DNA from: Alphaproteobacteria bacterium
GTDB taxonomy: Bacteria; Pseudomonadota; Alphaproteobacteria; Rickettsiales; SXRF01
Direction: 5' to 3'
DNA: 64,000 nucleotides
NCBI GenBank assembly: GCA_025360605.1
Contig: JANYBV010000009.1
Location: 62,001 to 126,000, forward strand
Shown here piece after piece: positions 10,819 to 56,772 of this stretch (position 1 is its first letter; each line of letters begins with the position of its first letter). The notes below the pieces were generated by a model that was not told the origin of the DNA, searched no databases, and saw only the letters and a list, made by a program, of their open reading frames with translations. The translations under genes were made by a program, and so were the position numbers.

Positions 10819-10905
10819 GCTATTGAGTACTTTTTAGGTATAAATATCTGTTGTTTATACCGAGGCTCATGTGGCGGGTAACGCTCACATGGTTTCTGAA
10901 TTGCT

Positions 10906-30605: not shown

Positions 30606-32150
30606 TCAGCGCGCAAGCTGTAGATAGATATGGATAAAAGAGAATAGGTTATACTCTGCCAGCAGCGCCAGACCTAGCCCGTAAACGGCCTTATAGCCTT
30701 TCTTTTCCCACTGTTGCAATAGGCCAAGATAGACAACCAGAAAGAAAACCACCACGGGATAGACGTAGCGCACATCCGCCCAAAAGTAAGAAAGTTCAGG
30801 GAACAGCGCTTTGGCGCAGGCGAGGGCGGCCACGCTATAAAATAGAAAAACGGCACTATAGCCACAGCCTTCAGGCATGTGTTTTTTGCGGATGCGCCAA
30901 TAATATATTGATATCCCAAGGAACAACCATTGACACAGTAGTAATATATTCAGCACCACGGCTTGGTAGGAACTATTCCATGTATGCTGGCCGAACGACA
31001 TGCTACGCAGTAAATATCCCCAGAATTGCATGTTGATAAGATGCTGTGCTGAATTAATAACGATATAGGGATGAGTAAGATATTGTTTAAGGCTGAATGT
31101 GAAATAGAGTGAGGGGACGAAAGAGGTTGCACCGGCATAGGTTCCAAAGATGACCGAGACCTGATCGTTTTGCAGATAATTATAGAAATTCCGCCCATAC
31201 CCAAGGATAATACCAACACATAATACAATCATGCCACTCAGCAGCGGCTTCATCAGCATGGTGTCAGGGCGGGAGGTGGTGGCCATTGTCATAAAGATGT
31301 TTGGCCATTGCCGCATCGGGTAACGGTTGCCATGCTGGTACAAACTCAACGTGACAAATGACGCAAGCAGAATGGCCGCGCTTGTTTGCGTGCCAAAAGC
31401 AATCCCCATCCAGAGTAACGCACGGTTAAGCTGTTTAAGATCGGCCTCCTCAAACCATGCAAGCAGATGGTAGGCGCAACCGGCAAAGGTTAGGTAGATC
31501 AATATATTATTGCTGATCCTGCCACAGTGTAGGAGGTTGGCGGGCCAGAACATTAACGCACACACGCCCATCGTGACCAGAAACGGCGAACGGATGGTGC
31601 GCTGTATAATCATGACGCCGTAGAGCAGGAACAAGGCAAACATTCCAAAGCTGAAGGCCTGAAGTAACAGCCAGAGGTCTGTACTATTCGAATCCCATAT
31701 CATCGACCCAAGTTTGTAAATGCCGCCGGCAATTTCATAATATAAGGGAGCCTGATGCGCTTCCAGCAGCTCGTTATGGACGGGTAGTTTAATAGAGTTG
31801 GCATAGTATTGAATGGCGCTAATATTTTGCAGCCAGTCATATTGGTTATCGGGGATGGGATGATTGAAAATATACACAAACATTACCCATAGACCCGCCG
31901 CTGAAATAAAGAAAAGATGCGGCGTTTTTTGCAATACCTTCCCATAGCAGGCAAGGCCGAGCAGTAGCATCAGTGGCGTAGCCCAGATGGTGCCTTGTTC
32001 GCGCTGTTTCAACGGGGCAAGTCCCACTATATCAGGAGTCATTGGCAGGTAGGCAAAGACGAAGAGTGCTGCCATTAACACTATAAACACGGATGTATGG
32101 CGCGTGCGTAGCCGTAGCGGCATAATGTTGTTTAACTGGATGGTCTGCAT
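30606..32150 (-). CDS. Polytopic GT-like membrane protein (paralogue of 59640-61190)
   Basis: A 514-residue protein with about eleven hydrophobic helices. The first periplasmic loop carries HQAPLYYEIAGG, and the middle has FWPANLLHCGRISNN, MGIAFGTQTSAAILL and a late DVRYVYPVV. The layout is that of GT39/ArnT-like or PMT-like transferases that use polyprenyl-phosphate sugars in the periplasm. The protein at 59640-61190 shares FWPANLLH, RISN(N/D)IL(I/L)YL and AFGT in the same order. Donor and acceptor are unknown. Confidence 0.75.
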   Translation of the reverse strand: MQTIQLNNIMPLRLRTRHTSVFIVLMAALFVFAYLPMTPDIVGLAPLKQREQGTIWATPLMLLLGLACYGKVLQKTPHLFFISAAGLWVMFVYIFNHPIPDNQYDWLQNISAIQYYANSIKLPVHNELLEAHQAPLYYEIAGGIYKLGSMIWDSNSTDLWLLLQAFSFGMFALFLLYGVMIIQRTIRSPFLVTMGVCALMFWPANLLHCGRISNNILIYLTFAGCAYHLLAWFEEADLKQLNRALLWMGIAFGTQTSAAILLASFVTLSLYQHGNRYPMRQWPNIFMTMATTSRPDTMLMKPLLSGMIVLCVGIILGYGRNFYNYLQNDQVSVIFGTYAGATSFVPSLYFTFSLKQYLTHPYIVINSAQHLINMQFWGYLLRSMSFGQHTWNSSYQAVVLNILLLCQWLFLGISIYYWRIRKKHMPEGCGYSAVFLFYSVAALACAKALFPELSYFWADVRYVYPVVVFFLVVYLGLLQQWEKKGYKAVYGLGLALLAEYNLFSFIHIYLQLAR

Positions 32151-32278: not shown

Positions 32279-33523
32279 ATGAACCGACCACATGACGCTA
32301 TTAAAACGAGTATGAACATGGTGCAACCTGCTTCCCTGAGAGTCCCTTATGCAATGAGTGTCCACGGTGAGGAGGAAATCAGCGCTGTTTTAGATGTGCT
32401 GAGAACCACCACGCAAATGGGTCGGCATGTAAAAGAATTTGAATCCAAGATTGCGCAGTTGTTTTCCAAGCGTCATGGCATCATGGTGAATTCCGGCAGT
32501 TCAGCCTTGCAACTGGCGCTGGAGGCACCGTCATTACCGGTCGGCAGTGAAGTGATTACCCCGTGCCTCACCTTTGCCACGACGGTGGCAGCCATTCTTA
32601 AAAACGGGCTGGTGCCTGTCTTCATCGATGTCGAGCCGGGCACGTATTGCATTAATGCCAGCAAGGTGGAAGAAGCCATTAATGAAAACACCAGTGCGAT
32701 CGTGGCGCCTGACCTGATGGGCAACCTGCCGGACTGGCCAGCGCTTTCCTCTTTGGCTAAAAAACACAATTTACTGGTGGTGGAAGACTCTGCCGATACG
32801 CTCGGAGCTACATTGAACGGCAACTCGTCAGGAACCTATTCCGATATCAGCATCACCAGCTTTTACGGGTCGCATATTATTAATTGTGCTGGCAACGGCG
32901 GGATGCTGTGTGTGAACGATGACGAACATGACCGCCGTGCGCGCCTGTTGCGCTCATGGGGGCGTAGTTCCTCGCTCTTTAATGATTCCGAGGCGATTGA
33001 AAACCGCTTCAACGTTGAAGTCGATGGTATTCCTTATGATACTAAATTTCTCTTTGAAGCCATTGGTTATAATTACGAGCCATCGGAATTAGGGGCGGCT
33101 TATGGGCTTGTCCAATTAGGCAGGTTACAGAAAAACATGGAAGCGCGTGCCCATCATTACAGCGTGCTGAGGGAATTTTTCTCAAAGTACAGTGAGTGGT
33201 TTATCCTTCCCGAGCAGCGTGCGGGCAGCAACACGGCGTGGCTGGCATTCCCGCTGACTATTCGTGAAAACGCGCCTTTTGACCGCCGTAGTTTCCAGAT
33301 CTTTTTTGAAAAACGCAACATACAAACCCGCGTGGTCTTCACCGGTAACGTGTTACGGCAACCTGGTTTCCGCAATATCCCGTGCGTAGTGGATACGGAT
33401 GGGTATCCGGTGGCAGATGAGGTGATGCGTGGTGGCGTACTGATGGGATGCCATCACGGCATGACACCGGAAATGCTGGCGCATATTAAGGACACGTTCG
33501 TCGAATTCACCAAAACACTGTAG
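32279..33523 (+). CDS. DegT/DnrJ-family PLP enzyme of RfbH type (Lys replaced by His)
   Basis: A 414-residue fold-type I PLP protein. The Asp that contacts the pyridine nitrogen is Asp170 (VVEDSAD). The position that normally carries the Schiff-base Lys reads SFYGSHIIN: His199. Together with the downstream RSWGR and AIGYNYEPSELGAA segments, this marks the RfbH/E1 and ColD branch, which dehydrates or deoxygenates 4-keto-6-deoxyhexoses instead of transaminating them. With rfbF and rfbG nearby it would act on CDP-4-keto-6-deoxyglucose. The associated reductase is not visible. Substrate is inference. Confidence 0.85.
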   Translation: MNRPHDAIKTSMNMVQPASLRVPYAMSVHGEEEISAVLDVLRTTTQMGRHVKEFESKIAQLFSKRHGIMVNSGSSALQLALEAPSLPVGSEVITPCLTFATTVAAILKNGLVPVFIDVEPGTYCINASKVEEAINENTSAIVAPDLMGNLPDWPALSSLAKKHNLLVVEDSADTLGATLNGNSSGTYSDISITSFYGSHIINCAGNGGMLCVNDDEHDRRARLLRSWGRSSSLFNDSEAIENRFNVEVDGIPYDTKFLFEAIGYNYEPSELGAAYGLVQLGRLQKNMEARAHHYSVLREFFSKYSEWFILPEQRAGSNTAWLAFPLTIRENAPFDRRSFQIFFEKRNIQTRVVFTGNVLRQPGFRNIPCVVDTDGYPVADEVMRGGVLMGCHHGMTPEMLAHIKDTFVEFTKTL

Positions 33524-33528: not shown

Positions 33529-34470
33529 ATGGAACCGCTCAAGCGTATTTCAATCATTGCGCCTGCCTATAACGAAGAAGCCTGTGTTCAGGAATTTTAT
33601 CAGCGTATCGTGGATGTTTTTGCCATGCTGCCCAAATACGATTTCGAGATCATCATGGTCGAGAATGGTTCCCATGATCAGAGTTTCGACATTGCTGCCC
33701 GAATCCATCAGCAAGACCAGCGGTTTAAAGTCATTAAGCTGTCACGCAATTTTATGCCCGAGGGCGGCATTGCAGCCGGCCTGTCGCGGGCATCGGGCGA
33801 TGCTGCGGTGGTGATGTCGGCGGATCTTGAGGATCCACCGGAGCTGATTCCGCAATTCATTGCAAAGTGGGAAGAAGGATTTGAAAATGTCTACGGCGTT
33901 ATAAGGAAGCGCACGTCATCGTATTTGCGCAGCATCAATTCCAAAGCGTTCTATCATGTTATCCATCTGCTGACCGGCAAGCTTATACCCAAGGATGTGG
34001 CGGATTTCCGCCTCATTGACCGTAAGCTCTACGAGGTCATTAACCTGATGCCGGAGCGCAACCGTTTCTTGCGCGGGTTATTCGCGTGGGTTGGGTTCCG
34101 TTCGGTCGGTATTCCATTTGAGCGTGGCCGCCGCCACGGCGGCGAATCGAAGGCCAGCACGCGGGTTGTACTCAATCTGGCGTTTCGTGGGATTTTCAGT
34201 TTTTCCTACACACCTTTGCGGCTTTCCATGCTGCTTGGGTTTGTGCTTTCAGGGCTGTCATTCTTGGGCATGGTTTATTTTGTAGGAAAAATCTTACTGT
34301 TTGGCTGGCTGCCCTTCAGCGGTTTCGGCACGATCGTATGCATGAATTTATTTTTATTTGGCATGGTCTTTATTATTCTGGGCATCATGAGCGAGTATAT
34401 CGGCATGATTTTTCGTGAGGTAAAGGCGCGGCCACTCTACATTATTGATAAGGCACTCGGATGGGACTGA
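33529..34470 (+). CDS. Membrane-anchored GT2 (GtrB/ArnC-like)
   Basis: A 313-residue protein with the GT2 N-terminus SIIAPAYNEEACV, the DxD-type MSADLEDPPELI and the DFRLIDRK motif of polyprenyl-phosphate glycosyltransferases. Two C-terminal membrane helices (about 233-255 and 268-295) anchor it. It would load a sugar onto a lipid carrier. It begins 5 bases after the RfbH-type gene and its end overlaps the fusion gene by 10 bases, so these three genes form an operon. Confidence 0.88.
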   Translation: MEPLKRISIIAPAYNEEACVQEFYQRIVDVFAMLPKYDFEIIMVENGSHDQSFDIAARIHQQDQRFKVIKLSRNFMPEGGIAAGLSRASGDAAVVMSADLEDPPELIPQFIAKWEEGFENVYGVIRKRTSSYLRSINSKAFYHVIHLLTGKLIPKDVADFRLIDRKLYEVINLMPERNRFLRGLFAWVGFRSVGIPFERGRRHGGESKASTRVVLNLAFRGIFSFSYTPLRLSMLLGFVLSGLSFLGMVYFVGKILLFGWLPFSGFGTIVCMNLFLFGMVFIILGIMSEYIGMIFREVKARPLYIIDKALGWD

Positions 34471-36260
34471 AAACAACAAGCGACATGATTTTAACAGCAG
34501 GGCCTTCGATCACAGATCGGGAAATGGCTTATACGCAAGATGCCGCGCTCAATGGCTGGAACCGCCATCACAGCGATTACATTGCGCGCTTCCAGAATAA
34601 AATGAGCCAGTTTATCGGTGTGCCGCATACGATGGCAACGTCGAGCTGTACGGGTGCTATGCATCTGGCGTTGTCTGCCCTTGGCATTAAAGCGGGCGAT
34701 GAGGTGATTGTACCTGAAATCACGTGGGTGGCAACCGCCTCGGCTGTGTGCTACACGGGTGCAAAACCGGTATTTTGCGATGTGGATCCGCAAAGCTGGA
34801 CGGCCACTGCAGACACTATTGCGCGTTGCATCACACCGCGTACCAAGGCCATCATGCCTGTCCATCTGTACGGTCATCCCTGCTTAATGGCGCCAATCAT
34901 GGAGCTGGCGGCAAAGCATAATCTGGTGGTGGTGGAAGATGCGGCACAGTCGGTTGGCGGCGAATATCGCGGTAAAAAAACCGGAAGTTTTGGCGTGTTT
35001 GCCGCCTTCAGTTTTCAGGGCGCTAAAGCGTTAGTAACGGGTGAGGGGGGAATGCTGCTCGCCAATGATGCAGAGCTTTTTGCCCGCGCGCAAATTCTTG
35101 GCGACCATGGCCGTGATTTGCACAAGGCGTTATTCAATAATGAAATCGGCTATAAATATAAAATGTCCAATCTGCAGGCATCGCTCGGCCTTGCCCAGAT
35201 TGAACGTGTGGATGATATTGTAGCGCGCAAGCGCCAGATTTTCGCTTGGTATAAAGAACGCCTCGGCGATATCGAGGAAATTGCCCTTAATGCCGAACTT
35301 CCGGAATGCAAAAATATCTACTGGATGTCTTCTTTGGTGCTTGGAACTAAAATTTCCTTATCGCGCGATGAGGTGATGGCCGAGCTGAAAAAGCGGATGG
35401 TGGATACCCGCCCTATGTTCTACCCGCTTAGCAGCATGCCGATGTTTGAGCAGCAAAAGAATCCTGCTGCGTATCATGCGGGGTTGCGTGGCATCAACCT
35501 GCCAAGCGGCCACGAGCGCACGGAAGAAGAGGTGGATTACATCTGCGCTCACCTGCGTGAAGTATTAGGAAAATCGCTGAAAAATTCTAAAACAGCAGTT
35601 CCGTCTGGTTGGCTGGCGTACCGTGACGAAGTGGCTGCAACGATTAGTGATGCCAAAGAAACGGCAAACCAGAAACGTTACACCTTGCCGCTTATGGATA
35701 AAGGTAAGCAAGTGGGACAGTTGATTCCGTTCACGCAGGCGCATGCGACCGATGATGCCGTCATTCGCTTACTGGCCAAATGGCGCGACCAGTCGCAGGA
35801 TGCGTTCCCGGGCCAGTTCAAGGTCACCTTTGAAGGCACGAAGGGCTGGGCACAACGCCAGCTGATGCAGCTGCCGGACCGCATGCTGTTTCTAATCGTG
35901 GATGATAAACAGAACATGATCGGCCATATCGGCCTGTTCCGTTTTGACTTCAAGAAACGCTTCTGCGAAATCGATAATGTCGTGCGCGGCGAAGATGCTG
36001 GCAAAGGCCTGATGACGCTTGCAACCAATGCGCTGATGCAATGGGGGCGGGATGCCTTGCATGTGAAGGATTTTTATTTGCGGGTCATGTCGAATAACAC
36101 ACGTGCGTTGAATCTGTATGAGCGCACGGGTTTTAGCGAAATATTGCGGGTACCGCTGGTTCTCCTGAAGAACGCCGACGGTTCGCTATCATGGGTCAGT
36201 GCGGGGCATCATGTGTATGAAGCACCGGAACGCTATTTCGTTACGATGAAAAAAATCTGA
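34461..36260 (+). CDS. Fused DegT-type aminotransferase and GNAT acetyltransferase
   Basis: A 599-residue fusion. Residues 1-375 form a sugar aminotransferase of the DegT/DnrJ/EryC1 family with the full catalytic set: Asp160 (VVEDAAQ) and Lys189 in FSFQGAKAL. Residues 425-599 are a GNAT acetyltransferase (LFLIVDDKQNMIGHIGLF, then VVRGEDAGKGLMT as the acetyl-CoA loop, and NTRALNLYERTGF near the end). A short linker joins them. The enzyme would transaminate a keto sugar and then acetylate the new amine, as two separate proteins do in PseC/PseH-type pathways. The order of action is inference. Confidence 0.88.
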   Translation: MGLKTTSDMILTAGPSITDREMAYTQDAALNGWNRHHSDYIARFQNKMSQFIGVPHTMATSSCTGAMHLALSALGIKAGDEVIVPEITWVATASAVCYTGAKPVFCDVDPQSWTATADTIARCITPRTKAIMPVHLYGHPCLMAPIMELAAKHNLVVVEDAAQSVGGEYRGKKTGSFGVFAAFSFQGAKALVTGEGGMLLANDAELFARAQILGDHGRDLHKALFNNEIGYKYKMSNLQASLGLAQIERVDDIVARKRQIFAWYKERLGDIEEIALNAELPECKNIYWMSSLVLGTKISLSRDEVMAELKKRMVDTRPMFYPLSSMPMFEQQKNPAAYHAGLRGINLPSGHERTEEEVDYICAHLREVLGKSLKNSKTAVPSGWLAYRDEVAATISDAKETANQKRYTLPLMDKGKQVGQLIPFTQAHATDDAVIRLLAKWRDQSQDAFPGQFKVTFEGTKGWAQRQLMQLPDRMLFLIVDDKQNMIGHIGLFRFDFKKRFCEIDNVVRGEDAGKGLMTLATNALMQWGRDALHVKDFYLRVMSNNTRALNLYERTGFSEILRVPLVLLKNADGSLSWVSAGHHVYEAPERYFVTMKKI

Positions 36261-36268: not shown

Positions 36269-37342
36269 CTATAATTTTCGCGTATATAACGTTAGCTGGG
36301 AGCTGCTGAACGCATCCATTTCCTCAGGATTTTTCAGATATTCGCGGTACCATTCTCCCGTAGCATGAATGGTTTCATGCGTGGTGAATTTAGGTTTCCA
36401 GCCAAGCGATTTCCGCGCTTTGTCTGAATTCAGCATAAGAGTTTTTGCTTCGTGAGCGCCGGACGGGGTATCCCGAGTAACCATAACAGGATGTGCCAGC
36501 GCCTGAACGAATAATTCCGTTAACTCACCTGCTGTCATGGCCGCTTCATCCGGTGCAAAATTGAAAGCTTCGGCAAACGCATCGCCTTTTTCACACAATG
36601 CCCGCCCCAGCAGCAGATAGCCGTGCAACACATCCAGCACATGCTGCCATGGCCGGATGCTTTCGGGATGCCGCAGGTGCAGCGGCGTATGCGAGCCTGC
36701 CGCGCGTACGGCATCGGGAATTAAGCGGTGCTGTGCGAAATCGCCACCGCCGATGACGTTACCGGCACGTGCTGTTGCCATGGCAATACCCGCCTGTTGC
36801 AAAAATGAATGGCGGTAGCTGGCCGATACGATTTCAGTGGCAGCCTTGCTGGCGGAGTAAGGGTCGCGTCCACCCAGCGGGTCGTCCTCGCGGAAGCGAG
36901 TGGCGGTTTCATTATTCTCGTAGCATTTATCGGTCGTCACGTTGACGATGGCCTTGATGCCGCTGATATTGCGTGCGCTTTCAAGCAGGTTCAGCGTGCC
37001 GATAATGTTGGTAGAAAATGTATCCATCGGCGTTTCATAAGAGGGAAGCACCAGTGCCTGCGCCGCCAGATGAAAGACCATGTCCGGTTGCGCCTTTGCC
37101 ATAGCGCGCTGTAATGCGGTAGCATCGCGAATGTCGCCGATGGTGGAATCCATCGCTTTATCCAATCCCAGCATTCGGTAAAGGTTTGGAGATGAGGCAT
37201 CCGGCGCAAGCGCATATCCGCTGACAGTGCAACCCATGGATAGCAGCCACTGGCATAGCCATGCACCTTTAAAGCCAGTATGGCCGGTGACGAGTATGCG
37301 TTTACCGCGATAGAATTCTTCGGGTGTTACCATAATTTCCAC
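36269..37342 (-). CDS. rfbG: CDP-glucose 4,6-dehydratase
   Basis: A 357-residue extended SDR. The Rossmann motif is TGHTGFKG; the active site has the YSASK tetrad, and the MVFHLAAQALVLPSYETP and HPESIRPWQHVLD segments are typical of RfbG. It converts CDP-glucose to CDP-4-keto-6-deoxyglucose. It overlaps the start of its partner rfbF by 16 bases. Starts at 37342 or at M4. Confidence 0.93.
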   Translation of the reverse strand: MEIMVTPEEFYRGKRILVTGHTGFKGAWLCQWLLSMGCTVSGYALAPDASSPNLYRMLGLDKAMDSTIGDIRDATALQRAMAKAQPDMVFHLAAQALVLPSYETPMDTFSTNIIGTLNLLESARNISGIKAIVNVTTDKCYENNETATRFREDDPLGGRDPYSASKAATEIVSASYRHSFLQQAGIAMATARAGNVIGGGDFAQHRLIPDAVRAAGSHTPLHLRHPESIRPWQHVLDVLHGYLLLGRALCEKGDAFAEAFNFAPDEAAMTAGELTELFVQALAHPVMVTRDTPSGAHEAKTLMLNSDKARKSLGWKPKFTTHETIHATGEWYREYLKNPEEMDAFSSSQLTLYTRKL

Positions 37343-38097
37343 GGTGCCTTGCCACTATCCCACATGGTTTCTGCTTGGTTTTTGTCACGCAGCGTATCGA
37401 TACAGTGCCAGAAACCGGAATGGCGATACGCCATTAATTCTCCCTGATGCGCCAATGTTGCTAATGGTTGTTTCTCCCAGCTAATGTCGTCTCCTTCGAT
37501 GTAATCAATGACTTTGGGGGAGAGGACAAAAAATCCGGCATTGATGAAGGAGCCGTCACCGATGGGCTTTTCCCTGAATTCCGATACTTTGTCGCCATTC
37601 AGGTCCAGCACGCCAAAGCTTCTGGCGGTCTGGACGGCACTTACCGTTGCCAGCTTGCCATGTTTGCGATGGAACGCGATAGAATCTGCGATGTTGATAT
37701 TGCTCAGGCCGTCACCATAGGTGAGGCAGAAACAATCATCATCTTTGACATAGTCGCGGATGCGGCGTACGCGCCCGCCGGTCATCGATTCCTCGCCGGT
37801 GTCCACCAGCGTCACCCGCCATGGCTCAGCTACGTTGCGGTGGAAGACTACGGAATTATCCGTCATGTCGTAGGTGACGTCCGATTGCAGCATGTAATAA
37901 TGCGCGAAGTAGTGTTTGATTACATGGCCTCTATAACCAAGGCAGATCACAAAATCGTTGATACCAAAATGTGAATATAATTTGATGATGTGCCACAGCA
38001 GCGGCTTGCCGCCGACTTCCACCATGGGTTTTGGTTTCAGGGTGGTTTCTTCGCTCAGGCGTGTGCCTAGCCCCCCTGCCAGAATGACTGCTTTCAT
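37327..38097 (-). CDS. rfbF: Glucose-1-phosphate cytidylyltransferase
   Basis: A 256-residue nucleotidyltransferase: MKAVILAGGLGTRLSEET, KPKPMVEVGGKPLLWHI and YGDGLSNI are diagnostic. It makes CDP-glucose from glucose-1-phosphate and CTP. It lies upstream of rfbG and downstream of the MaoC-like gene, all with overlapping ends, so the three form one operon. Confidence 0.94.
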   Translation of the reverse strand: MKAVILAGGLGTRLSEETTLKPKPMVEVGGKPLLWHIIKLYSHFGINDFVICLGYRGHVIKHYFAHYYMLQSDVTYDMTDNSVVFHRNVAEPWRVTLVDTGEESMTGGRVRRIRDYVKDDDCFCLTYGDGLSNINIADSIAFHRKHGKLATVSAVQTARSFGVLDLNGDKVSEFREKPIGDGSFINAGFFVLSPKVIDYIEGDDISWEKQPLATLAHQGELMAYRHSGFWHCIDTLRDKNQAETMWDSGKAPWKLW

Positions 38098-38570
38098 TGA
38101 GACTCTCCTTTATGACTGTTGAGGCATGGCACAAGAACGGCGGCGTCCATTTCCATGACCAGCGCATCATGCTGATTATAGGTGTCTACCCGATAGGTGA
38201 CTACACCTTTAGTCGGGCTGGATTTCGACAGACGCTTACTGGTAATGGTTATCACAATCCGTAATGTATCCTCCGGATAAACAGGCTGCGGCCATTTTAC
38301 GGATTCCAGTCCCAGTCCGATCAGCCCGCCCGACACTTTCGAGAGCGGACTGCCGATTTTCAGCCGCATGCTGACGGCGGCGGTGTACAGGCCACTGGCG
38401 GCTAGTTTGCCAAATACACTATGCTTGGCGGCTTCCTCGTCGGTGTGAAAATATTGCGGATCAAAGTCGCGGGCGAAAGCGATGGCATGTTCTTTCGTAA
38501 TCAGGTATCCGCCATTGGTAAATTGCTCGCCGATGGCTATATCTTCGAAATAAAGTGCTTTTTCCACCAT
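38094..38570 (-). CDS. MaoC-like dehydratase/hotdog protein
   Basis: The start at 38570 gives a 158-residue protein beginning MVEKALYFEDIAIGEQF; the upstream extension has no support. The hotdog fold shows the MaoC pattern: FARDFDPQYFHTDEEAA, then VFGKLAASGLYTAA with the catalytic Asp/His area. MaoC-like proteins hydrate enoyl-CoAs. Here it sits at the head of the rfbF-rfbG operon, which is unusual, and it may act on a sugar-linked or acyl substrate. The role is unclear. Confidence 0.85.
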   Translation of the reverse strand: MVEKALYFEDIAIGEQFTNGGYLITKEHAIAFARDFDPQYFHTDEEAAKHSVFGKLAASGLYTAAVSMRLKIGSPLSKVSGGLIGLGLESVKWPQPVYPEDTLRIVITITSKRLSKSSPTKGVVTYRVDTYNQHDALVMEMDAAVLVPCLNSHKGESQ

Positions 38571-38637
38571 TTTTCTTTCTTTATATAATAGGTTGCGTGG
38601 TGTACACCATAAGTAACGCAACAAAAATGTACTTCAG

Positions 38638-39558
38638 ATGAGCGAAGCCGACAACCAAAAGAGCAACCCACCGGTCAAAACACCCGCATGGGATACGTTG
38701 CTGGTGAATATCAACGTTGCCACCATGGCCGATGCCCAGAGTTATGGTATTATTGAAAACGGCGCGATTGGCATGAAGGCAGGGCGCATTATCGGCTTGG
38801 GCGCGATGAACGAGTTGCCGGACATCCCTGATAAGCTTGCGGTTGATGTCATTGATTGTGGCAATATCTGGGCAACGCCAGGGTTGATTGATTGCTATAG
38901 CCATGTAGTCAGCGTGACCGCCACCACGAATGAACAATCGCTGGCACTCAGTATCCGCTGGCTGGCGGCTTTGCTGAAAGAAGGTGTAACCACGGTTGCC
39001 AGTCTGGTGACTGCGGATTTAACGACAGACGAGAAGGTCGCCATCGCTCAGCTTGCCCGCCGTCTCGAGGATAATTATCCCCTGTATGTATATACGGATA
39101 TTCTCGATACCCAGCTTCTGTTGCTACCGGATGCTGCCGAGAAAGAAATCAAGGAAATGGTGGCGGCTAAAAAGGTTGGCGTGTTGCTGCCCGCCCGCTA
39201 TTACACAAATAAAGCATTGGCCTTACCTCCGTTGGCATTGCTGCGCGAACATAAAGCGGCCTTTGCCATCGCCAGCGACTGCGATCCGCTATCATCCCCG
39301 CCCAGCAGCCTGCTACCGTTATTAAACATGGCGTGCCAATTATTGGGGCTTACGGCTGTTGAAGCGTTGCATGGCCTGACGAGTCTGGCGGCGCGGGCCA
39401 TCGGTATTGCTGATGATATAGGCACTATTTCCTACGGCAAGGTAGCCGACATCGCGCTGTGGGATATTGACCATCCGGCGGATTTATCCTCGCATCTGGG
39501 GGGCAATCCATGCCTTGGGGTGTTTAAAGCCGGTACGCTCTATAAGGTAAAAGACTAG
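38638..39558 (+). CDS. Shortened imidazolonepropionase-like amidohydrolase, probably not metal-active
   Basis: A 306-residue protein resembling HutI at both ends: PGLIDCYSHV at residues 81-90, KEGVTTV, and in the C-terminal half AIASDCDPLSSPPSSLLPLLNMAC and YGKVADIALWDIDHPADLSSHLG. HutI proteins are about 400 residues. Here a central block of roughly 70-100 residues that carries further metal ligands is missing, and the H-x-H motif reads Tyr87-Ser-His89. Asp214 remains. It may be a non-catalytic or altered member. It sits divergent from the MaoC-rfbF-rfbG operon, with no other histidine-degradation gene nearby. Confidence 0.7.
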   Translation: MSEADNQKSNPPVKTPAWDTLLVNINVATMADAQSYGIIENGAIGMKAGRIIGLGAMNELPDIPDKLAVDVIDCGNIWATPGLIDCYSHVVSVTATTNEQSLALSIRWLAALLKEGVTTVASLVTADLTTDEKVAIAQLARRLEDNYPLYVYTDILDTQLLLLPDAAEKEIKEMVAAKKVGVLLPARYYTNKALALPPLALLREHKAAFAIASDCDPLSSPPSSLLPLLNMACQLLGLTAVEALHGLTSLAARAIGIADDIGTISYGKVADIALWDIDHPADLSSHLGGNPCLGVFKAGTLYKVKD

Positions 39559-41484: not shown

Positions 41485-42318
41485 ATGATAAAAACCATAC
41501 TTATGACCAATGATCCCGAGATTGCCATGGACGCGCAGGCGGCTGGCGTATCGCGCATCATGGTCGATCTTGAAACCATGGGAAAAAAAGAGCGCCAAGC
41601 TACGCGCAACACTTTCATTAGCACCCACACCAGTCAGGATGTTGCCAAAATTCGTGCCGTGGTCAAAGACTCTGAATTCATGGTGCGCATCAACCCAATG
41701 CATTTCGGTTCGGAAGACGAGATCAACCGTGTAGTGGATGACGGCGCTGATATCATCATGTTGCCGATGATTACGCGCATGGTTCAGCTTGACGATTTCC
41801 TGCACCTGCTGGCGGGGCGTGCCAAGCCTTTGCCGTTGCTGGAAACCGCCTATTCTATGGCGCATATCAGCGACATCGTGTTTGACCAGAGGATTGAAGA
41901 GGTGTTTTTCGGCCTGAACGATTTGCATCTGTCGCTGGGGTTAGATTTCCTGTTTGAGCCACTGGCACTTGGCATCATCGACTGGATGGCCGGTATGACG
42001 GCCGCATGCGGAAAGTCTTTTGGCTTTGGCGGCATGGCGGCCATTGGCCACGGCGAATTACCTGCCGAACGTATTTTAGGCGAGCATATGCGCATGGGTT
42101 CCTCCTGCGTTATTTTATCGTCACGTTTTTGTAAGGATGTAGCCATAGACGAACCCAAGGGGCGGCGTGAGCGCCTGACGCAGGCATTGGCGGCAATTCA
42201 CGGAGCATGGCAGCAGCTTGAAAAACGTACTCCCGAGCAAGTGCAGCAGGATGCAGGGGAAACATTTGCCCGCATTCGCGCGCTGGCCGACCATGTGCGT
42301 GAAAACGGAAAAGTATAA
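41485..42318 (+). CDS. HpcH/HpaI aldolase/citrate lyase family protein
   Basis: A 277-residue TIM-barrel aldolase with IMVDLETMGKK, RINPMHFGSEDEI, IIMLPMITRM and ETAYSMAHI, the order seen in the HpcH/HpaI/CitE superfamily of metal-dependent pyruvate or acetyl-CoA aldolases. Its stop codon overlaps the start of the NeuB-type gene (TAATG), so the two are translated together. The pair may supply or trim a 2-keto sugar acid; the substrate is unknown. Confidence 0.85.
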   Translation: MIKTILMTNDPEIAMDAQAAGVSRIMVDLETMGKKERQATRNTFISTHTSQDVAKIRAVVKDSEFMVRINPMHFGSEDEINRVVDDGADIIMLPMITRMVQLDDFLHLLAGRAKPLPLLETAYSMAHISDIVFDQRIEEVFFGLNDLHLSLGLDFLFEPLALGIIDWMAGMTAACGKSFGFGGMAAIGHGELPAERILGEHMRMGSSCVILSSRFCKDVAIDEPKGRRERLTQALAAIHGAWQQLEKRTPEQVQQDAGETFARIRALADHVRENGKV

Positions 42319-43397
42319 TGAATGAGGTTTACATCATAGCCGAAGCCGGTGTGAACCATGACGGCAGTGAAAAAAAAGCCTTCGAGCTGATTGATATTGC
42401 TGCCGATTGTGGTGCTGATGCGGTCAAATTCCAGTTATTCAGGCCCGAAGCGCTTGTCGCCGGATTGTCCACCCAAGCTGAACACCAGACGCGGAACCTG
42501 AAAAGTTCTCCTAAATCCGAACGCCAGATCATGGAAATGCTGGCACTGTCACCCGACATCATGTCGCATCTGGCACAACATTGCGCCCTGCGTAAAATTG
42601 ACTTTCTGTGTACGGCCTTTGATACGGAAAGTCTGGACTATCTGGTCAGCAATACGCGTATGCCATATATCAAACTTGCCTCCGGCGACATTACCAATGG
42701 CCCATTGCTGGTTGCGGCGGCGCGCACAAGTTTGCCTATTATCCTGTCGACGGGCATGTCGGATATGGAAGAAATTTCTACGGCATTATGCCTGCTGCAT
42801 TTCGGGTATACGCGTTCGTCCGGTCATCCGACCAAGCTGTCGCACCCAACCCCCCTGATGCTAAAATTCCTGCGTGAAAAAGTGGTGCTGATGCACTCAG
42901 TCAGCCATTACCCTGCGCCCGCGCACAGCATTCATTTACTCGCTATGGATACGCTGGCCAACACGTTTGGCTTGCCGGTAGGATTTTCCGATCACAGCCT
43001 TGGGCTTTCGCTGCCGATTGCAGCAGCAGCGCGTGGTGCGGTAGCGATTGAAAAACATTTTACCCATGATGTGAAGGCCAAAGGCTCCGACCACGCGGCA
43101 TCGCTGGGGCCAGACATGTTGAAGGCCATGGTGTTGGGATTGCGTGAGGTGACGCAGGCGATGGGTGGATACGATAAGTTGTGCCAGCCGGAAGAAGCAG
43201 ACAGCCGTGTCAGCCTTCGCCGCAGTCTTGTTGCGGCTTGTCCGATTATTGCAGGGGATGTTTTCAGTGAGCAAAATCTGGCGTGCAAACGTCCGGCAAT
43301 GGGGCTTCCGCCCAATACGCTGTGGGAACTGCTGGGTAAAACGGCAAAGCGCGACTATGATGCCGATGAATGTATTGATGAGCGTGAACTGGATTAA
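42318..43397 (+). CDS. NeuB-family sialic-acid-type synthase
   Basis: A 359-residue protein. The barrel opens with YIIAEAGVNHDGS and GADAVKFQLFRPEAL, continues with FLCTAFDTESLDYL and FSDHSLGLSLPIAAAARGA, and includes EKHFTHD with the catalytic His. The C-terminal part (about residues 295-355) looks like the SAF antifreeze-like domain. Such enzymes condense PEP with an N-acyl hexosamine to make nonulosonates. No neu-type activation gene (CMP-transferase) is visible in the window. Confidence 0.88.
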   Translation: MNEVYIIAEAGVNHDGSEKKAFELIDIAADCGADAVKFQLFRPEALVAGLSTQAEHQTRNLKSSPKSERQIMEMLALSPDIMSHLAQHCALRKIDFLCTAFDTESLDYLVSNTRMPYIKLASGDITNGPLLVAAARTSLPIILSTGMSDMEEISTALCLLHFGYTRSSGHPTKLSHPTPLMLKFLREKVVLMHSVSHYPAPAHSIHLLAMDTLANTFGLPVGFSDHSLGLSLPIAAAARGAVAIEKHFTHDVKAKGSDHAASLGPDMLKAMVLGLREVTQAMGGYDKLCQPEEADSRVSLRRSLVAACPIIAGDVFSEQNLACKRPAMGLPPNTLWELLGKTAKRDYDADECIDERELD

Positions 43398-44071: not shown

Positions 44072-44818
44072 TTATTTTGGCGACATGCGCAGCGCACCGT
44101 CAAGGCGCACCACTTCACCGTTGATGGCAACATTCTCTATCATATGCAGTGCAAGTGCTGCAAATTCTTCCGGTTTAATCAGGCGCGGCGGGAAAGGGAC
44201 GGTGGCTTCCAGACTTTCGCGTACCTCCGGTGTCATGCCTGCTACCATCGGTGTATCCACCGGACCAGGGGCAATGGCGTTCACGCGGATGCCGAATTTT
44301 GCCAGCTCGCGTGCAGCCGGCAGCGTCAGGCTTACGATCGCACCCTTCGATGCGGCATAGGCTACTTGTCCGATCTGTCCTTCATAGGCGGCAATCGATG
44401 CGGTGTTAATAATGATGCCGCGCTCGCTGGAATCGCCCAGCGGTTCCAATGTACTCATCGCTTCTGTGGCAAGGCGCATGACGTTGAACGTGCCACCCAC
44501 ATTTACGCGCAGCACCTGCTCGAACGTATCGAGTTTCATCGGCCCTTCGCGTGAGAGAATCCGTCCTGCACCCAAAACACCCGCACAGTTAATAACGATG
44601 CGCGCCGCACCATGCGCCTTCGTTGCTTTGTCCATTGCAGCCTTGACGCTGGATTCACTGGTCACGTCACACTCGCAGAAAAGCCCCATAGCTTCCTTTG
44701 GTGCTTGGCGGTCGAACAATACTACCTTCGCACCGGCTTTGGACAATGCTCGTGCGGTGGCGGCGCCGAGGCCGGATGCCCCGCCGGTAATGATTGCTGA
44801 AATATCTTTAGTCTGCAT
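44072..44818 (-). CDS. SDR of HSD10 type (3-hydroxyacyl-CoA dehydrogenase)
   Basis: The start at 44818 has AGGG about 6 bases upstream; the frame open to 44986 lies inside the previous gene and is not used. The 248-residue protein carries TGGASGLG, INCAGV, and the YAASK active site, and the RVNAIAPGPVDTPM and GEVVRLDGALRM end typical of HSD10. HSD10-type enzymes oxidise 2-methyl-3-hydroxybutyryl-CoA, which would place it in isoleucine degradation. It overlaps the acyl-CoA dehydrogenase gene by 11 bases. Confidence 0.9.
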   Translation of the reverse strand: MQTKDISAIITGGASGLGAATARALSKAGAKVVLFDRQAPKEAMGLFCECDVTSESSVKAAMDKATKAHGAARIVINCAGVLGAGRILSREGPMKLDTFEQVLRVNVGGTFNVMRLATEAMSTLEPLGDSSERGIIINTASIAAYEGQIGQVAYAASKGAIVSLTLPAARELAKFGIRVNAIAPGPVDTPMVAGMTPEVRESLEATVPFPPRLIKPEEFAALALHMIENVAINGEVVRLDGALRMSPK

Positions 44819-45944
44819 GTATTTCCCTGCTGATGATGAGGCGTTGGATATCGCTGGTTCCTTCGTAAATTTGTGCCACGCGCACGTCGCGGCAGATGCG
44901 TTCGATGGGAAAATCACGCAAATAGCCGTAGCCGCCGAGGGTTTGCATCGCTGCCGAACACACGCGCTCTGCCATTTCCGAGGCAAAGAGTTTGGCCATG
45001 CACGCTTCTTTCAGGCATGGTAAACCTGCATCGCGCAGTGAAGCCGCATGCAGCAGCAATTGTCGCGCCGCTTCAATGTCAGTGCCCATATCGGCAAGGC
45101 GGAACGCCACGGCCTGATGCTGGTTAATAGGTTTTCCAAAACTTTCACGTTCCTTGCCATACGCCAGTGCCGCTTCATAGGCTGCACGCGCCATGCCGAT
45201 GGATTGTGCGCCAATGCCGATGCGGCCGCCCTCTAAATTCGATAGAGCGATTTTATAGCCTTCACCTTCTGCACCCAAACGGTGCGTGGCGGGAATTCGC
45301 ATATCTTCAAAGGCTAACGAGGCTGTATCCGATGAGGTTTGCCCCATCTTGTGTTCAATTTTAGTAACGCTGTAGCCTTTGGTTTGGGTGGGCACGATAA
45401 ACGCCGAGATGCCTTTTTTTCCTGCGGATTTATCGGTGACGGCAAACACCAGTGTCACGTCGGCATGTTTACCAGAGGTGATGAACTGTTTGCTGCCATT
45501 GAGAATATAATCTTCGCCGTCACGCACCGCACTACAGCGCAGTGCTGCGGCATCCGATCCGGCTTGCGATTCGGTGAGTGCAAAGGCTCCAAGCCACTGC
45601 CCGCGCGCCAGTGGGTTTAAAAAATGCTCTTTCTGCCAGTCGTTGCCGTGTTTCAATAACGCCGGACCTACCAGTGAATTTTGCACACTCATAATGGTGG
45701 AGCATGCGCCGTCCGCAGCAGCAATTTCTTCAATCGCCAGTGCCATCGACACGTAATCCGCGCCGCATCCGCCGTAATTTTCCGGTATCAGCATACCCAT
45801 CAAACCGAGCTTGCCCATTTCGGCAATTTCATCCTTGGGAAATAACGATTGCTCATCACGCAGAGCCGCTTGCGGCGCTAAACGCTCACGCGCAAAATTA
45901 TGTGCCATTTCCTGAATCATTGCCTGCGTTTCGCTGGGTATCAT
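44808..45944 (-). CDS. Acyl-CoA dehydrogenase (short/branched-chain type)
   Basis: A 378-residue flavoenzyme. The ATG at 45944 overlaps the thiolase stop (ATGA), which fixes the start. It contains FALTESQAGSDAA, the FITSGKHAD segment and the C-terminal QTLGGYGYLRDFPIERICRDVRVAQIYEGTSDIQ motif. It oxidises an acyl-CoA with electron-transfer flavoprotein as acceptor. Beside an HSD10-type SDR and a thiolase, a 2-methylbutyryl-CoA substrate is likely (inference). Confidence 0.92.
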   Translation of the reverse strand: MIPSETQAMIQEMAHNFARERLAPQAALRDEQSLFPKDEIAEMGKLGLMGMLIPENYGGCGADYVSMALAIEEIAAADGACSTIMSVQNSLVGPALLKHGNDWQKEHFLNPLARGQWLGAFALTESQAGSDAAALRCSAVRDGEDYILNGSKQFITSGKHADVTLVFAVTDKSAGKKGISAFIVPTQTKGYSVTKIEHKMGQTSSDTASLAFEDMRIPATHRLGAEGEGYKIALSNLEGGRIGIGAQSIGMARAAYEAALAYGKERESFGKPINQHQAVAFRLADMGTDIEAARQLLLHAASLRDAGLPCLKEACMAKLFASEMAERVCSAAMQTLGGYGYLRDFPIERICRDVRVAQIYEGTSDIQRLIISREIHAD

Positions 45945-47125
45945 GCCATTGTCTCCACTGCCATTGCCACGGCTTCGCCACCGCCGATGCATAAACTTGC
46001 CATACCGCGTTTGAGTTTATGTTGCTTCATGGCTGAAAGCAATGTCACTAAAATCCGTGCGCCTGATGCGCCGATCGGGTGCCCCATCGCGCACGCACCG
46101 CCGTGGATATTGACCTTCTCGTGCGGCAGTTTCAACTCCTGCATCGCCGCCATGACCACCACGGCAAACGCCTCGTTGATTTCAAACAGATCTACGTCCT
46201 TTAAAGCCCAGCCGGTTTTTTCTGATAATTGGGTGAGAGCGGACACGGGTGCGGTGGCAAACCATGCGGGTTCCTGAGCATGGCTGGCGTGCGCGATGAT
46301 ACGCGCCAGTGGCGTGAGGCCACGTTTTTCCGCTTCGGACAAGCGCATGAGCATCAGTGCTGCCGCACCGTCGGATATAGAGCTGGCATTGGCGGCCGTT
46401 ACCGTGCCATTTTTGTCGAAGGCGGGTTTGAGCGTCGGAATTTTTTCCGGCATGGCTTTTTGCGGTTGCTCATCGATGCTGATGAACACATCGCCTTTTT
46501 TGCCTTTGATGGTGACGGGGGTTATTTCATCGGCAAAGCGCCCATCCGCAGTCGCTTTTTTTGCACGCTCGAGGGAGGCGATGGCGTAAGCGTCTTGCGC
46601 CTCGCGCGTAAATTTAAAATGGCTCGCACAATTTTCAGCGAATACACCCATGAGTTTTCCTGCCTCATAGGCATCCTGCAGGCCGTCCAAAAACATGTGG
46701 TCTTGCAGTGCCACATTGCCCATCTTGTGACCGTGGCGTGCTTTAAGCAGCAGGTGAGGGGCATTCGTCATGCTTTCCATGCCGCCGGCAATAATCCTGC
46801 TTGCCGACCCTGCCACTATCGCATCATGCGCCAGCATCACGGCTTTCAGCCCCGAGCCGCACACCTTGCTGACGGTGGTGCAGGCCGTTGCCTGATGCAA
46901 TCCGGCACCCAGCGCTGCTTGCCTTGCAGGCGCTTGCCCAAGTCCGGCGGCAAGTACGCAGCCCATGTACACTTCATCAATAGCATCTGTGCCAATGCTG
47001 CCGCGCTCGAGTGCTGCTTTGATAGCCACCGCGCCCAGTTGTGTGGCACTGACATCTTTAAAATCACCCAGCAATCCGCCAATCGGCGTGCGTGCGGCGG
47101 AGACAATCACCACAGGGTCGGTCAT
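45941..47125 (-). CDS. Acetyl-CoA acyltransferase (thiolase)
   Basis: A 394-residue thiolase with the acylation Cys in KVCGSGLKAV, the HGGACAMGHPIGASGARI motif, and the C-terminal ASLCIGGGEAVAMA with the second Cys. It splits 3-ketoacyl-CoA into acetyl-CoA and a shorter acyl-CoA, or works in reverse. In this operon it would cleave 2-methylacetoacetyl-CoA or acetoacetyl-CoA. Its start overlaps the stop of the upstream ligase gene. Confidence 0.94.
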   Translation of the reverse strand: MTDPVVIVSAARTPIGGLLGDFKDVSATQLGAVAIKAALERGSIGTDAIDEVYMGCVLAAGLGQAPARQAALGAGLHQATACTTVSKVCGSGLKAVMLAHDAIVAGSASRIIAGGMESMTNAPHLLLKARHGHKMGNVALQDHMFLDGLQDAYEAGKLMGVFAENCASHFKFTREAQDAYAIASLERAKKATADGRFADEITPVTIKGKKGDVFISIDEQPQKAMPEKIPTLKPAFDKNGTVTAANASSISDGAAALMLMRLSEAEKRGLTPLARIIAHASHAQEPAWFATAPVSALTQLSEKTGWALKDVDLFEINEAFAVVVMAAMQELKLPHEKVNIHGGACAMGHPIGASGARILVTLLSAMKQHKLKRGMASLCIGGGEAVAMAVETMA

Positions 47126-48756: not shown

Positions 48757-49631
48757 GGTGATGGTTTACCCAGCTGCTGCAGGATGAATTGCTTAGCGCT
48801 GTAGAGTGCATCGGGGTTGGTGACGGGCGAGCTATGCCCATGCACGCGGCACCACTGCACCAGATCTTCCATGGCAAGGTTGCCCTTTGGGCTGTTGGCA
48901 TAGGGGCAGCCGCCCAAGCCTCCGGTGGAGGCATCAAACGTGCGGATGCCAAAATCATACGCGGTTTCGACATTCTGTATCGCTTTGCCATAGGTGTCAT
49001 GAAAATGCAGCGCCACCTGATGCAGCGCAACGGAATGCACCCTGAGGGTAGAGACCAGCGTAGCGACCGTGTCCGGTGTGGCGATTGCGGTGGTATCCCC
49101 CAGCGACACCTCGTAACAGCCCATGTTTAGCAATTGCTGGCTGCGATAGGCAACGACATCGGGGTTAAATTCAAGATCGCTGTAGCCAAACACATTCGAC
49201 ACATACCCGCGCACGCGCATACCCGCCGTGCGCGCTTCGTCAATCACCGGCTGGATGTCGATGAACGACTGGTCGACCGATGCGTTGATATTAGCTCTGG
49301 AGAATTGTTCGGAAAGGCCGAGGAAAATAGCAATTTCCTTTGCGCCAATGGCTTTCGCGCGCTCCAGACCTTTGAGATTCGGCACGAGATAAGAAAAAAT
49401 AATATCGGGATTCGCTTCCTGCAAAGGCAAAAGCGCTCTTGCCACGGCTTCTGAATTCGCCATGGCCGGAACAGCGGCAGCCCTCACAAAACTTCCCGCT
49501 TCTATGCGTTTAAGCCCTGATCGCATCAGCAGTGAAATATATTCAACCTTCGCATCGACCGAAAGCGATGCTGCATTAGGTTCGTTCTGCAAGCCATCAC
49601 GGGCGCTGACATCAACGATCTGAATGTCCAT
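48753..49631 (-). CDS. liuE: Hydroxymethylglutaryl-CoA lyase
   Basis: A 292-residue DRE-TIM metallolyase. It has VSARDGLQNEP near the N-terminus, VSLGDTTAIATP, HFHDTYGKA with metal-binding His residues, and GGLGGCPYANSPKGN carrying the catalytic Cys. It cleaves HMG-CoA to acetyl-CoA and acetoacetate, the last step of leucine breakdown. Confidence 0.94.
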   Translation of the reverse strand: MDIQIVDVSARDGLQNEPNAASLSVDAKVEYISLLMRSGLKRIEAGSFVRAAAVPAMANSEAVARALLPLQEANPDIIFSYLVPNLKGLERAKAIGAKEIAIFLGLSEQFSRANINASVDQSFIDIQPVIDEARTAGMRVRGYVSNVFGYSDLEFNPDVVAYRSQQLLNMGCYEVSLGDTTAIATPDTVATLVSTLRVHSVALHQVALHFHDTYGKAIQNVETAYDFGIRTFDASTGGLGGCPYANSPKGNLAMEDLVQWCRVHGHSSPVTNPDALYSAKQFILQQLGKPSP

Positions 49632-49637
49632 ATTGCC

Positions 49638-52434: not shown

Positions 52435-52436
52435 AA

Positions 52437-54053: not shown

Positions 54054-54055
54054 GC

Positions 54056-55576: not shown

Positions 55577-55606
55577 AACATCTCCCCTTATTTTTTAAGT
55601 ATATTA

Positions 55607-56761: not shown

Positions 56762-56772
56762 AGGATATTCCT

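Follow-up and report, generated by a model that had tools for sequence, protein, structure and literature searches.

Does a single polypeptide that joins an aminotransferase to an acyltransferase carry out one pathway segment, and if so, on which sugar? The question is raised by a gene at 34461-36260 (plus strand) of the window, by which we mean the whole stretch of 64,000 nucleotides analysed here. It encodes one 599-residue protein without internal stops, in which profile searches place a DegT-type aminotransferase (Pfam PF01041, DegT_DnrJ_EryC1, residues 16-365, E 6e-107, 358 bits against a cut-off of 19.8) ahead of a GNAT domain (PF13302, Acetyltransf_3, residues 431-558, E 3e-13, 51 bits against a cut-off of 25.4). 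Lys189 aligns with the lysine mutated (K186A) in the Caulobacter GDP-perosamine synthase of PDB 3dr4, and it is invariant across seven aligned fusions. The original prediction of a DegT-type aminotransferase with intact Lys189 and a GNAT domain in one chain was thus borne out by the unbroken frame, the Pfam matches and the lysine alignment, and a search for a stop or frameshift at the linker found the frame open throughout.

Table 1 Features of the fusion gene and its neighbours, in coordinates of the window.
Feature	Position	Strand	Basis
RfbH/E1-like PMP-type C3-dehydrase	32279..33523	+	alignment with E1 3bcx, motif table over 20 homologues
GT2 glycosyltransferase resembling PgfS/ArnC	33529..34470	+	Pfam PF00535
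Aminotransferase part of the fusion, residues 1-372	34461..35576	+	DegT/DnrJ/EryC1/StrS fold, Pfam PF01041, PLP lysine Lys189
Linker, about residues 373-414	35577..35702	+	least conserved part, alignment of five fusions
GNAT N-acyltransferase part, about residues 415-599, with stop codon	35703..36260	+	Pfam PF13302
CDP-glucose 4,6-dehydratase RfbG	36269..37342	-	TIGR02622, 437 bits vs cut-off 278
Glucose-1-phosphate cytidylyltransferase RfbF	37327..38097	-	TIGR02623, 427 bits vs cut-off 300
MaoC-domain hydratase	38094..38624	-	Pfam PF01575, E 5e-16

Conservation was followed in one close pair of fusions (L045 and L051), in which linker identity was 0.62, against 0.89 and 0.80 on its two sides. 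NG86 estimates for this pair were dN 0.063 and dS 1.78 in the aminotransferase domain and dN 0.114 and dS 1.05 in the GNAT domain, with dS near saturation in both; as far as this one pair goes, both domains look selected. A pseudogene, a frameshift or a chance join was ruled out by the open frame, by the same architecture in relatives and by the low dN relative to dS in L045/L051. The acyl-CoA pyrophosphate loop of GNAT enzymes carries the motif [Q/R]xxGx[G/A]; the loop of the fusion reads R509-GEDAGKG516, and the first glycine of the motif varies among relatives.

The full-length structure model was weak (pLDDT 67, pTM 0.61, built with seven sequences), so that contact between the two halves could not be read from it, and its VIA-align comparisons cover residues 6-374. 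Over this part, in a model of modest confidence, the aminotransferase matched 3dr4 with Z 26.6 and rmsd 3.2 over 291 aligned residues. The GNAT part, modelled separately (pLDDT 92.5, pTM 0.87), matched known GNATs at Z of about 17-18, including FdhC (5ktc, Z 17.0, with CoA and an (R)-3-hydroxybutanoylamino sugar bound) and, about equally, PseH (4ri1, Z 16.9, crystallised with acetyl-CoA). FdhC and PseH are GNATs for nucleotide-linked amino sugars, and the amine they acylate has been installed by a DegT aminotransferase; they share the fold of the fused GNAT but are stand-alone proteins, with 13-16% identity to its model in structural alignments.

We then asked how far the arrangement extends beyond this genome. 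Relatives of the fusion at 54-57% identity exist, and the same-order fusion occurs in 4 of 261 other genomes sampled in the order Rickettsiales (matches better than 1e-60 were considered in the order sample, and better than 1e-90 in both the class and the phylum samples). A single-sequence scan of genome contigs returned no relative, and a profile scan was therefore used; among plasmid (72,556) and phage (50,697) records, no place covered 80% of the fusion query. A pattern scan of public genomes gave seven same-order records (one ending at a contig end, three matching genomes already in the order sample), five reverse-order records and four with separate genes. A fusion peculiar to the window genome was thereby ruled out, and the earlier description of it as uncommon stands as regards rarity but has to be joined by recurrence, since full-length fusions of the same order were found when searched for. 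Both the separate genes and the fusions occur in either order, and since each fusion order forms its own supported clade in the aminotransferase tree, the pair was probably fused twice, in opposite orders; the GNAT tree was poorly resolved and unusable for comparing histories.

The neighbouring genes point to the nucleotide. The RfbH-type gene, the GT2 gene and the fusion lie on one strand, separated by a 5-base gap and then a 10-base overlap, and this tight co-directional run agrees with the operon originally proposed, but the RfbH identity of its first member does not hold. That protein scores 304 bits against the curated RfbH model NF011936 (cut-off 423), and it has A, S, L and I where E1 (3bcx) has cysteines 193, 251, 253 and 261, which we take to be the four [2Fe-2S] ligands. 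The sub-cut-off score and the loss of these cysteines rule out a true RfbH. Histidine replaces the PLP lysine (SFYGSH aligned with SFYPAH). The 251/253/261 cysteine motif is missing in 9 of 20 aligned RfbH-type homologues and gapped in one, and an Fe-S-free dehydrase is present in 9 of the 19 cassettes with an RfbH-type gene; this dehydrase would be a further solution to C3-deoxygenation of CDP sugars. The GT2 neighbour calls for a second correction, as it scores under the cut-offs of the best named NCBIfam models (PgfS 245 bits, ArnC 158 bits); homologues occur in several relatives' cassettes, and the enzyme likely moves the finished sugar onto polyprenyl phosphate. A promoter and terminator scan was uninformative (14 promoter-like sites against 8.0 expected, 7 terminator-like sites against 7.4).

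Cassettes of the relatives contain CDP-glucose genes, a C3-dehydrase and mostly a ThDP C-C ligase. Counts rest on a six-frame search, greedy gene calling having hidden RfbG, RfbH and the transketolase N-part (TK-N) of L061. Left out before counting were duplicate contigs (L052, L053, L055, L093), near copies (L056, L075), loci matched over about 110 residues only (L085-L089) and viral matches (L100-L169, 70 of the best 80 of 311). RfbF or RfbG homologues were found in 17 of 21 aminotransferase-clade loci, window included; compared with curated cut-offs in L059 and L068, the RfbF of L068 fell below its own (271 vs 300 bits). A ThDP C-C ligase was present in 15 of 18 GNAT-linked loci, some having a split transketolase and others an acetolactate-synthase-like enzyme, which belongs to a different ThDP family; a ThDP enzyme was present in 17/21 aminotransferase-clade loci against 1/22 tree loci outside the clade (Fisher p 2e-7, the rows not being independent). 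The Vibrio cassette (L059) runs Fer2/FAD/NAD reductase (E3-like by architecture), RfbF, RfbG, a true RfbH (765 bits, cut-off 423), TK-N, TK-C, GNAT and aminotransferase. In L066 and L069 an N-formyltransferase adjoins the aminotransferase, the transketolase pair is present and the GNAT is absent; thus the cap changes while ligase and aminotransferase stay. L090 has both formyltransferase and GNAT, so the caps are not always alternatives. Gene content varies further. Within 21 kb, L066 encodes the ligase, the aminotransferase and the formyltransferase, yet neither a CDP gene nor RfbH. Two loci found after the tree was built are outside the 21 and 22 loci: L222 has a ThDP gene and no GNAT, and in L223 an aminotransferase is paired with a GNAT while neither a CDP nor a ThDP gene lies within 19 kb. 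The window cassette itself lacks the ligase, for which no match was found in the 64 kb; the genome carries a split transketolase on another contig (C15), and its orphan TK-N shares 62% identity with the counterpart in the L063 cassette (support 94/95). The probable CDP nucleotide, the ThDP ligase adjoining the pair in relatives and the departure of the dehydrase from true RfbH are points that the original prediction had missed.

Taken together, these data suggest that the fusion makes an N-acylated branch amine on a CDP-linked deoxysugar that is branched at C4 by a ThDP enzyme, a scheme to which we give a probability of about 0.48. The sequence supplies the domains, the intact catalytic lysine and the neighbours with their recurrence; the chemistry of each step, the identity of the substrate, the place of the branch and the nature of the acyl group are inferred. 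RfbF and RfbG would make CDP-4-keto-6-deoxyglucose, from which the RfbH-like enzyme would remove the hydroxyl at C3 to give CDP-4-keto-3,6-dideoxyglucose, probably in the manner of ColD and without an Fe-S cluster. A ThDP enzyme, encoded in the cassette in most relatives and probably by the split transketolase of contig C15 in the window genome, would attach a two-carbon unit at C4 and leave a branch ketone; the aminotransferase half would aminate this ketone, the GNAT half would acylate the amine, most simply with acetyl-CoA, and the GT2 would transfer the sugar to polyprenyl phosphate for a surface glycan. The parts of this scheme differ in strength. That aminotransferase and N-acyltransferase act in sequence is very probable, because the two also occur as neighbouring genes and in a reversed fusion; the original idea that one chain turns a keto sugar into an N-acetyl amino sugar is to this extent well supported for an N-acyl product, with two coupled steps in place of the single step proposed. 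A CDP-linked substrate is likely. For amination at the branch ketone the odds are even: since the C4 ketone can be used once and the only new ketone would lie in the branch, an aminotransferase linked to a ligase would fit the branch ketone, and the occurrence of two ThDP families is as expected if the step, not the gene, is conserved. The absence of a ThDP gene from the window cassette means that branching in this organism would rest on the unlinked gene pair.

The main rival to branch amination is direct amination of the C4 ring ketone followed by GNAT acetylation, which would yield CDP-4-acetamido-3,4,6-trideoxyhexose (or a 4,6-dideoxy sugar if the fusion acts before the RfbH-like enzyme) and leave the relatives' ThDP enzymes to make a different sugar, perhaps one that belongs to the same glycan. 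The window cassette without a ThDP gene is consistent with it, and so are the closest solved enzymes, the GDP-perosamine synthases of Caulobacter crescentus (3bn1/3dr4/3dr7), which share the aminotransferase fold, about 40% identity and the catalytic lysine, and in which GDP-3-deoxyperosamine bound to 3dr7 indicates that C4 amination is possible on a 4-keto sugar lacking the C3 hydroxyl. They have no fused acyltransferase, however, and aminate a GDP sugar at C4, whereas the neighbours of the fusion indicate a CDP sugar. Two cousin aminotransferases (L224, L225) adjoin RfbF and RfbG with no ThDP enzyme or RfbH within 19.5 kb, an arrangement suggesting that the ancestral enzyme aminated C4. Against this rival stand the concentration of ThDP enzymes of two families in the clade and the Vibrio cassette, which places its ThDP enzyme between RfbH and the GNAT-aminotransferase pair, and we regard direct C4 amination as a serious but somewhat doubtful possibility.

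A second alternative keeps the branch-amine scheme and changes the acyl group to (R)-3-hydroxybutyryl or another 3-hydroxyacyl, supplied through the MaoC hydratase. The MaoC reading frame shares 4 bases with that of RfbF and may, speculatively, point to a 3-hydroxyacyl-CoA donor, and the FdhC ligand is of this kind; nevertheless, at E 1e-5 MaoC went unmatched in the other loci tested, and PseH fits about as well, which makes this donor unlikely. That the fused GNAT ignores the aminotransferase product and is merely tethered to another enzyme of the same glycan pathway would accord with the activities of both halves being predictions, but it is very improbable given a pair split and fused in both orders, two separate fusion clades and the N-formyltransferase in place of the GNAT in L066 and L069.

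The branch-amine scheme has partial precedents. The available text of a review of branched sugars (PMC12247030) describes the yersiniose A pathway (RfbF/RfbG/E1/E3/YerE), which shares the CDP-4-keto-3,6-dideoxyglucose hub and in which YerE adds acetaldehyde to CDP-3,6-dideoxy-4-keto-glucose; it also notes that split transketolases have been put forward as enzymes adding hydroxyacetyl to keto sugars, and that the branch ketone is "transaminated (kibdelomycin)". According to the consulted part of PMC10055692, the amycolose of kibdelomycin/amycolamicin is, like the sugar proposed here, a branched 3,6-dideoxyhexose whose alpha-aminoethyl branch is N-acylated. It is an antibiotic sugar, however, and receives its branch at C3 from a ThDP enzyme of the alpha-keto acid dehydrogenase type; the text consulted mentions no aminotransferase-GNAT fusion. 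Mimivirus L136 with L142 also pairs an aminotransferase and an acetyltransferase sequentially, but as far as the accessible text goes (PMC9614988) the fusion partner of the acetyltransferase is a glycosyltransferase instead of the aminotransferase, and the sugar is UDP-linked. Compared with yersiniose A, a ThDP C-C ligase is shared with the cassettes of the fusion relatives, but these have an aminotransferase with a GNAT and many use a split transketolase; in the case of the window, the dehydrase is Fe-S-free and the ligase is encoded away from the cassette. In the YerE-type pathway the branch ketone is reduced by a YerF-type reductase.

Literature searches, covering titles and abstract openings with few subscription papers, returned no ThDP-branched sugar with an aminotransferase, no branch-amino sugar system and no aminotransferase-acetyltransferase fusion for nucleotide sugars; as far as these searches show, the proposed branched amino sugar pathway is undescribed. 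Tentatively, and with a little more doubt than hope, the loci may together define a widespread, multi-phylum surface-sugar pathway, present on at least one phage contig too, to CDP-3,6-dideoxy-4-C-(1-acylamido-alkyl) hexoses, with the nitrogen in the branch, twice-fused end enzymes and ThDP enzymes of two families. According to the available part of PMC12247030, a survey put forward 13 split transketolases as acting on ketones; every one of them is from a streptomycete, and no in vitro characterisation exists for any of the 13 (Krug et al. 2024 being cited there as a survey of such gene clusters). The cassettes would place split-transketolase candidates, together with a proposed acceptor, in Vibrio, Chromobacterium, an actinobacterium, several candidate phyla and a phage; cultured carriers include Vibrio sp. 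MEBiC08052 and Chromobacterium subtsugae. If true, the scheme would give genetic handles on branched amino sugars of surface glycans and natural biocatalysts able to aminate and cap, in one chain, a ketone adjoining a tertiary alcohol, and the opposite fusions of one pair form a natural experiment on how substrate passes from one half to the other.

The fusion gene runs as a frame without a stop (translation), and, as the original prediction had held of an aminotransferase and a GNAT domain on a single chain, both domains of the 599-residue product scored above their Pfam cut-offs; the PLP-binding lysine, Lys189, was present and invariant across seven aligned fusions. The proposed shared unit with an RfbH-type enzyme and a GT2 held for gene arrangement, with a 5-base gap from the RfbH-like gene to the GT2 gene and a 10-base overlap between the GT2 and fusion genes, but less well for the enzyme type, the RfbH-like protein having a histidine at the aminotransferases' lysine position and none of the four E1 cysteines. 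Among 20 aligned RfbH/E1-like homologues, nine were without the Fe-S cysteine motif (those of the window, L045-L048, L051, L057, L058 and L064, the L-numbers denoting loci with relatives), ten had cysteines 251/253/261, and that of L070 was gapped there. According to the part of one source consulted (PMC8987622), a mechanism of the ColD type, which relies on glutamate and hydrolysis, would dispense with Fe-S; we infer that the RfbH-like enzyme may work in this manner, and the motif-free family would possibly represent Fe-S-free C3-deoxygenation of CDP sugars. The L064 RfbH-like gene and the L046 RfbG gene are each split over two open frames, reflecting either sequencing error or decay.

The GNAT domain, modelled alone with 17 sequences, gave a confident structure (pLDDT 92.5, pTM 0.87) that matched known GNATs at Z 17-18, including FdhC (Z 17.0, rmsd 2.1, 156 aligned) and PseH (Z 16.9, rmsd 2.8, 165 aligned). 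Since polyamine and ribosomal-protein acetyltransferases were as near or nearer, the fold does not single out a substrate. The positions at which all 17 GNATs agree (domain numbering + 393) included Trp441, Arg442, Thr460, Trp463, Arg474, Gly488, His489, Gly491, Glu503, Asp505, Asn506, Asn546 and Tyr553.

The fusion, expected to be uncommon, was found at full length and in the same order in 4 of 261 other genomes of the order sample (55-57% identity), and is not unique. The class sample (384 other genomes) gave eight aminotransferase matches at E 1e-90 or better, with the fusion's GNAT type absent from the 4-kb loci of all eight and from longer stretches for seven of them; the phylum sample (397 other genomes) gave 14, one shared with the class sample, and within 4-kb loci a single one (genome G699) had the GNAT, encoded next door by a gene of its own. 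In 72,556 plasmid and 50,697 phage records, no region covered 80% of the query, a measure that a reverse-order fusion may escape. Scanning the contigs of public genomes with a profile yielded 39 loci, a lower bound as only two short peptide patterns were used; organisms are named as in the records, several of which are metagenome bins that may be mislabelled. The fusions of L051 and L056 (titled Rhizobium sp. Q54) and of L057 (Flavobacteriales), bins open to such mislabelling, fall among the fusions that share the window's domain order.

When a GNAT profile was made from the fusions and run iteratively over the loci, it detected 22 open frames, every one in or adjoining aminotransferase relatives; these reduced to 18 loci once duplicate contigs and L056, a near copy, were removed. 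Eight were aminotransferase-first fusions (window, L045-L048, L051, L054 and L057, the last cut by a contig end), five were GNAT-first (L061 Chromobacterium subtsugae, L062, L064 Legionella sp., L067 and L068 Actinobacteria IMCC25003) and five had two separate genes (L058, L059 Vibrio, L060, L063 and L090). In the aminotransferase tree (46 rows), the aminotransferase-first fusions formed one clade (100/99) and the GNAT-first ones another (96/95), around which the split forms sat inside a 21-row clade (92/96, just under the tool's star). Two fusions in opposite orders, out of neighbouring genes, would be the simplest history; the GNAT tree was too poorly resolved to check it.

Homology searches on the loci of the 21-row clade detected RfbF or RfbG homologues in 17 and an RfbH-type gene in 19. 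A thiamine diphosphate (ThDP) enzyme was found in 17/21 clade loci versus 1/22 tree loci outside it (Fisher p 2e-7, for loci that are non-independent and of unequal length); in the lone outside locus, L077, it adjoins another aminotransferase. Fifteen of the 18 GNAT loci had a ThDP enzyme, as transketolase parts in ten (L045, with one half at the contig end, L047, L051, L054, L058, L059, L061, L063, L068 and L090, the last with short halves of only 28-31% identity) or as an acetolactate-synthase-like enzyme in five (L046, L048, L060, L062 and L064); it was missing from the window, from L057, whose contig is 3.2 kb long, and from L067, where the fusion lies at the end of its contig. An alignment of 12 transketolase halves kept a GDG, SDG or SDA motif, which we take to be the acidic cofactor motif, and EQ, presumably the catalytic glutamate region. 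Outside these counts, L222 has an aminotransferase adjoining a ThDP enzyme with GNAT absent, and L223 has the aminotransferase-GNAT pair with no ThDP or CDP gene within 19 kb. The gene order in L059 is reductase, RfbF, RfbG, RfbH, transketolase N half, transketolase C half, GNAT and aminotransferase. Its RfbF (476 bits, cut-off 300), RfbG (508, cut-off 278) and RfbH (765, cut-off 423) passed; curated cut-offs were applied to relatives' RfbF and RfbG in L059 and L068 only, where three of four passed, the L068 RfbF falling below (271 versus 300). The L059 reductase, with Fer2, FAD and NAD domains, has an E3-like architecture; the named models that it matches best are of other reductases, and these matches are below cut-off. 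Judged by its genes, L059 combines the established route to CDP-4-keto-3,6-dideoxyglucose with a ligase and, after that, the GNAT-aminotransferase pair.

The ligase would consume the sugar's C4 ketone, which a C4-acting aminotransferase would also need; for the two to work on a single sugar, the ligase would have to come first and the aminotransferase would act on the ketone left in the branch. In the portions of the literature consulted, YerE adds acetaldehyde to CDP-3,6-dideoxy-4-keto-glucose, hydroxyacetyl transfer to keto sugars is the proposed role of split transketolases, the branch ketone of the kibdelomycin sugar is transaminated (PMC12247030), and kibdelomycin's amycolose carries an N-acylated alpha-aminoethyl branch (PMC10055692). 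These precedents, with the ligase-first argument, favour branch amination, and we give the whole scheme, a sequence-based reading, a probability of 0.48. Direct amination at C4 of the ring, a possible but less probable course, agrees with the nearest structures being GDP-perosamine synthases, one holding GDP-3-deoxyperosamine, and with cousin aminotransferases beside RfbF and RfbG in L224 and L225, which have no ligase or RfbH within 19.5 kb.

No ThDP enzyme match was present anywhere in the 64-kb window. Contig C15 of the same genome carries an orphan split transketolase adjoining a DUF6065 gene. The N half of this transketolase shares 62% identity with its counterpart in the L063 cassette (support 94/95). 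Short split-type frames (E 1e-30) occurred in 5 of 54 other genomes searched and in neither of two same-genus genomes; a sixth, in genome G036, lies at a contig edge and may be a cut core enzyme. A 30% acetolactate-synthase match in the window's genome is probably a housekeeping enzyme.

L066 and L069 have a transketolase pair but no GNAT, and an N-formyltransferase adjoins the aminotransferase, so that the amine seems, from gene content, to be capped by either enzyme; related N-formyltransferase genes also occur in the L061, L090, L092 and L094 loci. Counter to a simple swap, the L090 phage contig has both caps, and L066 has no CDP gene or RfbH within 21 kb. The L090 sugar genes are flanked by portal, head-morphogenesis and head-protease genes, and this phage likely changes the surface sugar of its host.

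Coordinates of features in the window and in related loci
Sequence	Position	Feature
Window	30606-32150	~515-residue protein, adjoins cassette
Window	32279-33523	RfbH-like protein
Window	34461-36260 (+)	Fusion
Fusion	residues 16-365	DegT/DnrJ/EryC1/StrS family
Fusion	residues 431-558	GNAT family
Window	38094-38624	MaoC-domain hydratase, 4-base overlap with RfbF
Window	38638-39558	306-residue amidohydrolase, imidazolonepropionase-like
Window	41485-43397	HpcH/HpaI-type gene, NeuB-SAF nonulosonate synthase directly after
Window	44808-58443	Thiolase, acyl-CoA dehydrogenases, biotin carboxylase, carboxyltransferase, HMGL-like lyase, AMP-binding enzymes
Window	59640-61190	~515-residue protein
L046	12395-13464	RfbG gene
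L064	8083-9310	RfbH-like gene
L066	11127-11879	N-formyltransferase
L069	11110-11916	N-formyltransferase
L090 (IMGVR_UViG_3300031566_011949)	6008-10937	RfbH-like, N-formyltransferase, GNAT, aminotransferase, reduced-length transketolase-like halves
L177 (contig C15)	4870-6620	Split transketolase

Elsewhere in the window, the MaoC hydratase matched nothing in the other loci that were tested, and the two ~515-residue proteins, 32% identical to each other, had no Pfam match. The amidohydrolase is shorter than its model, which it matches below cut-off and in two stretches, and is possibly a degenerate copy. The HpcH/HpaI-type and NeuB-SAF genes perhaps belong to a second sugar pathway, and the acyl-CoA cluster looks like branched-chain acyl-CoA breakdown.
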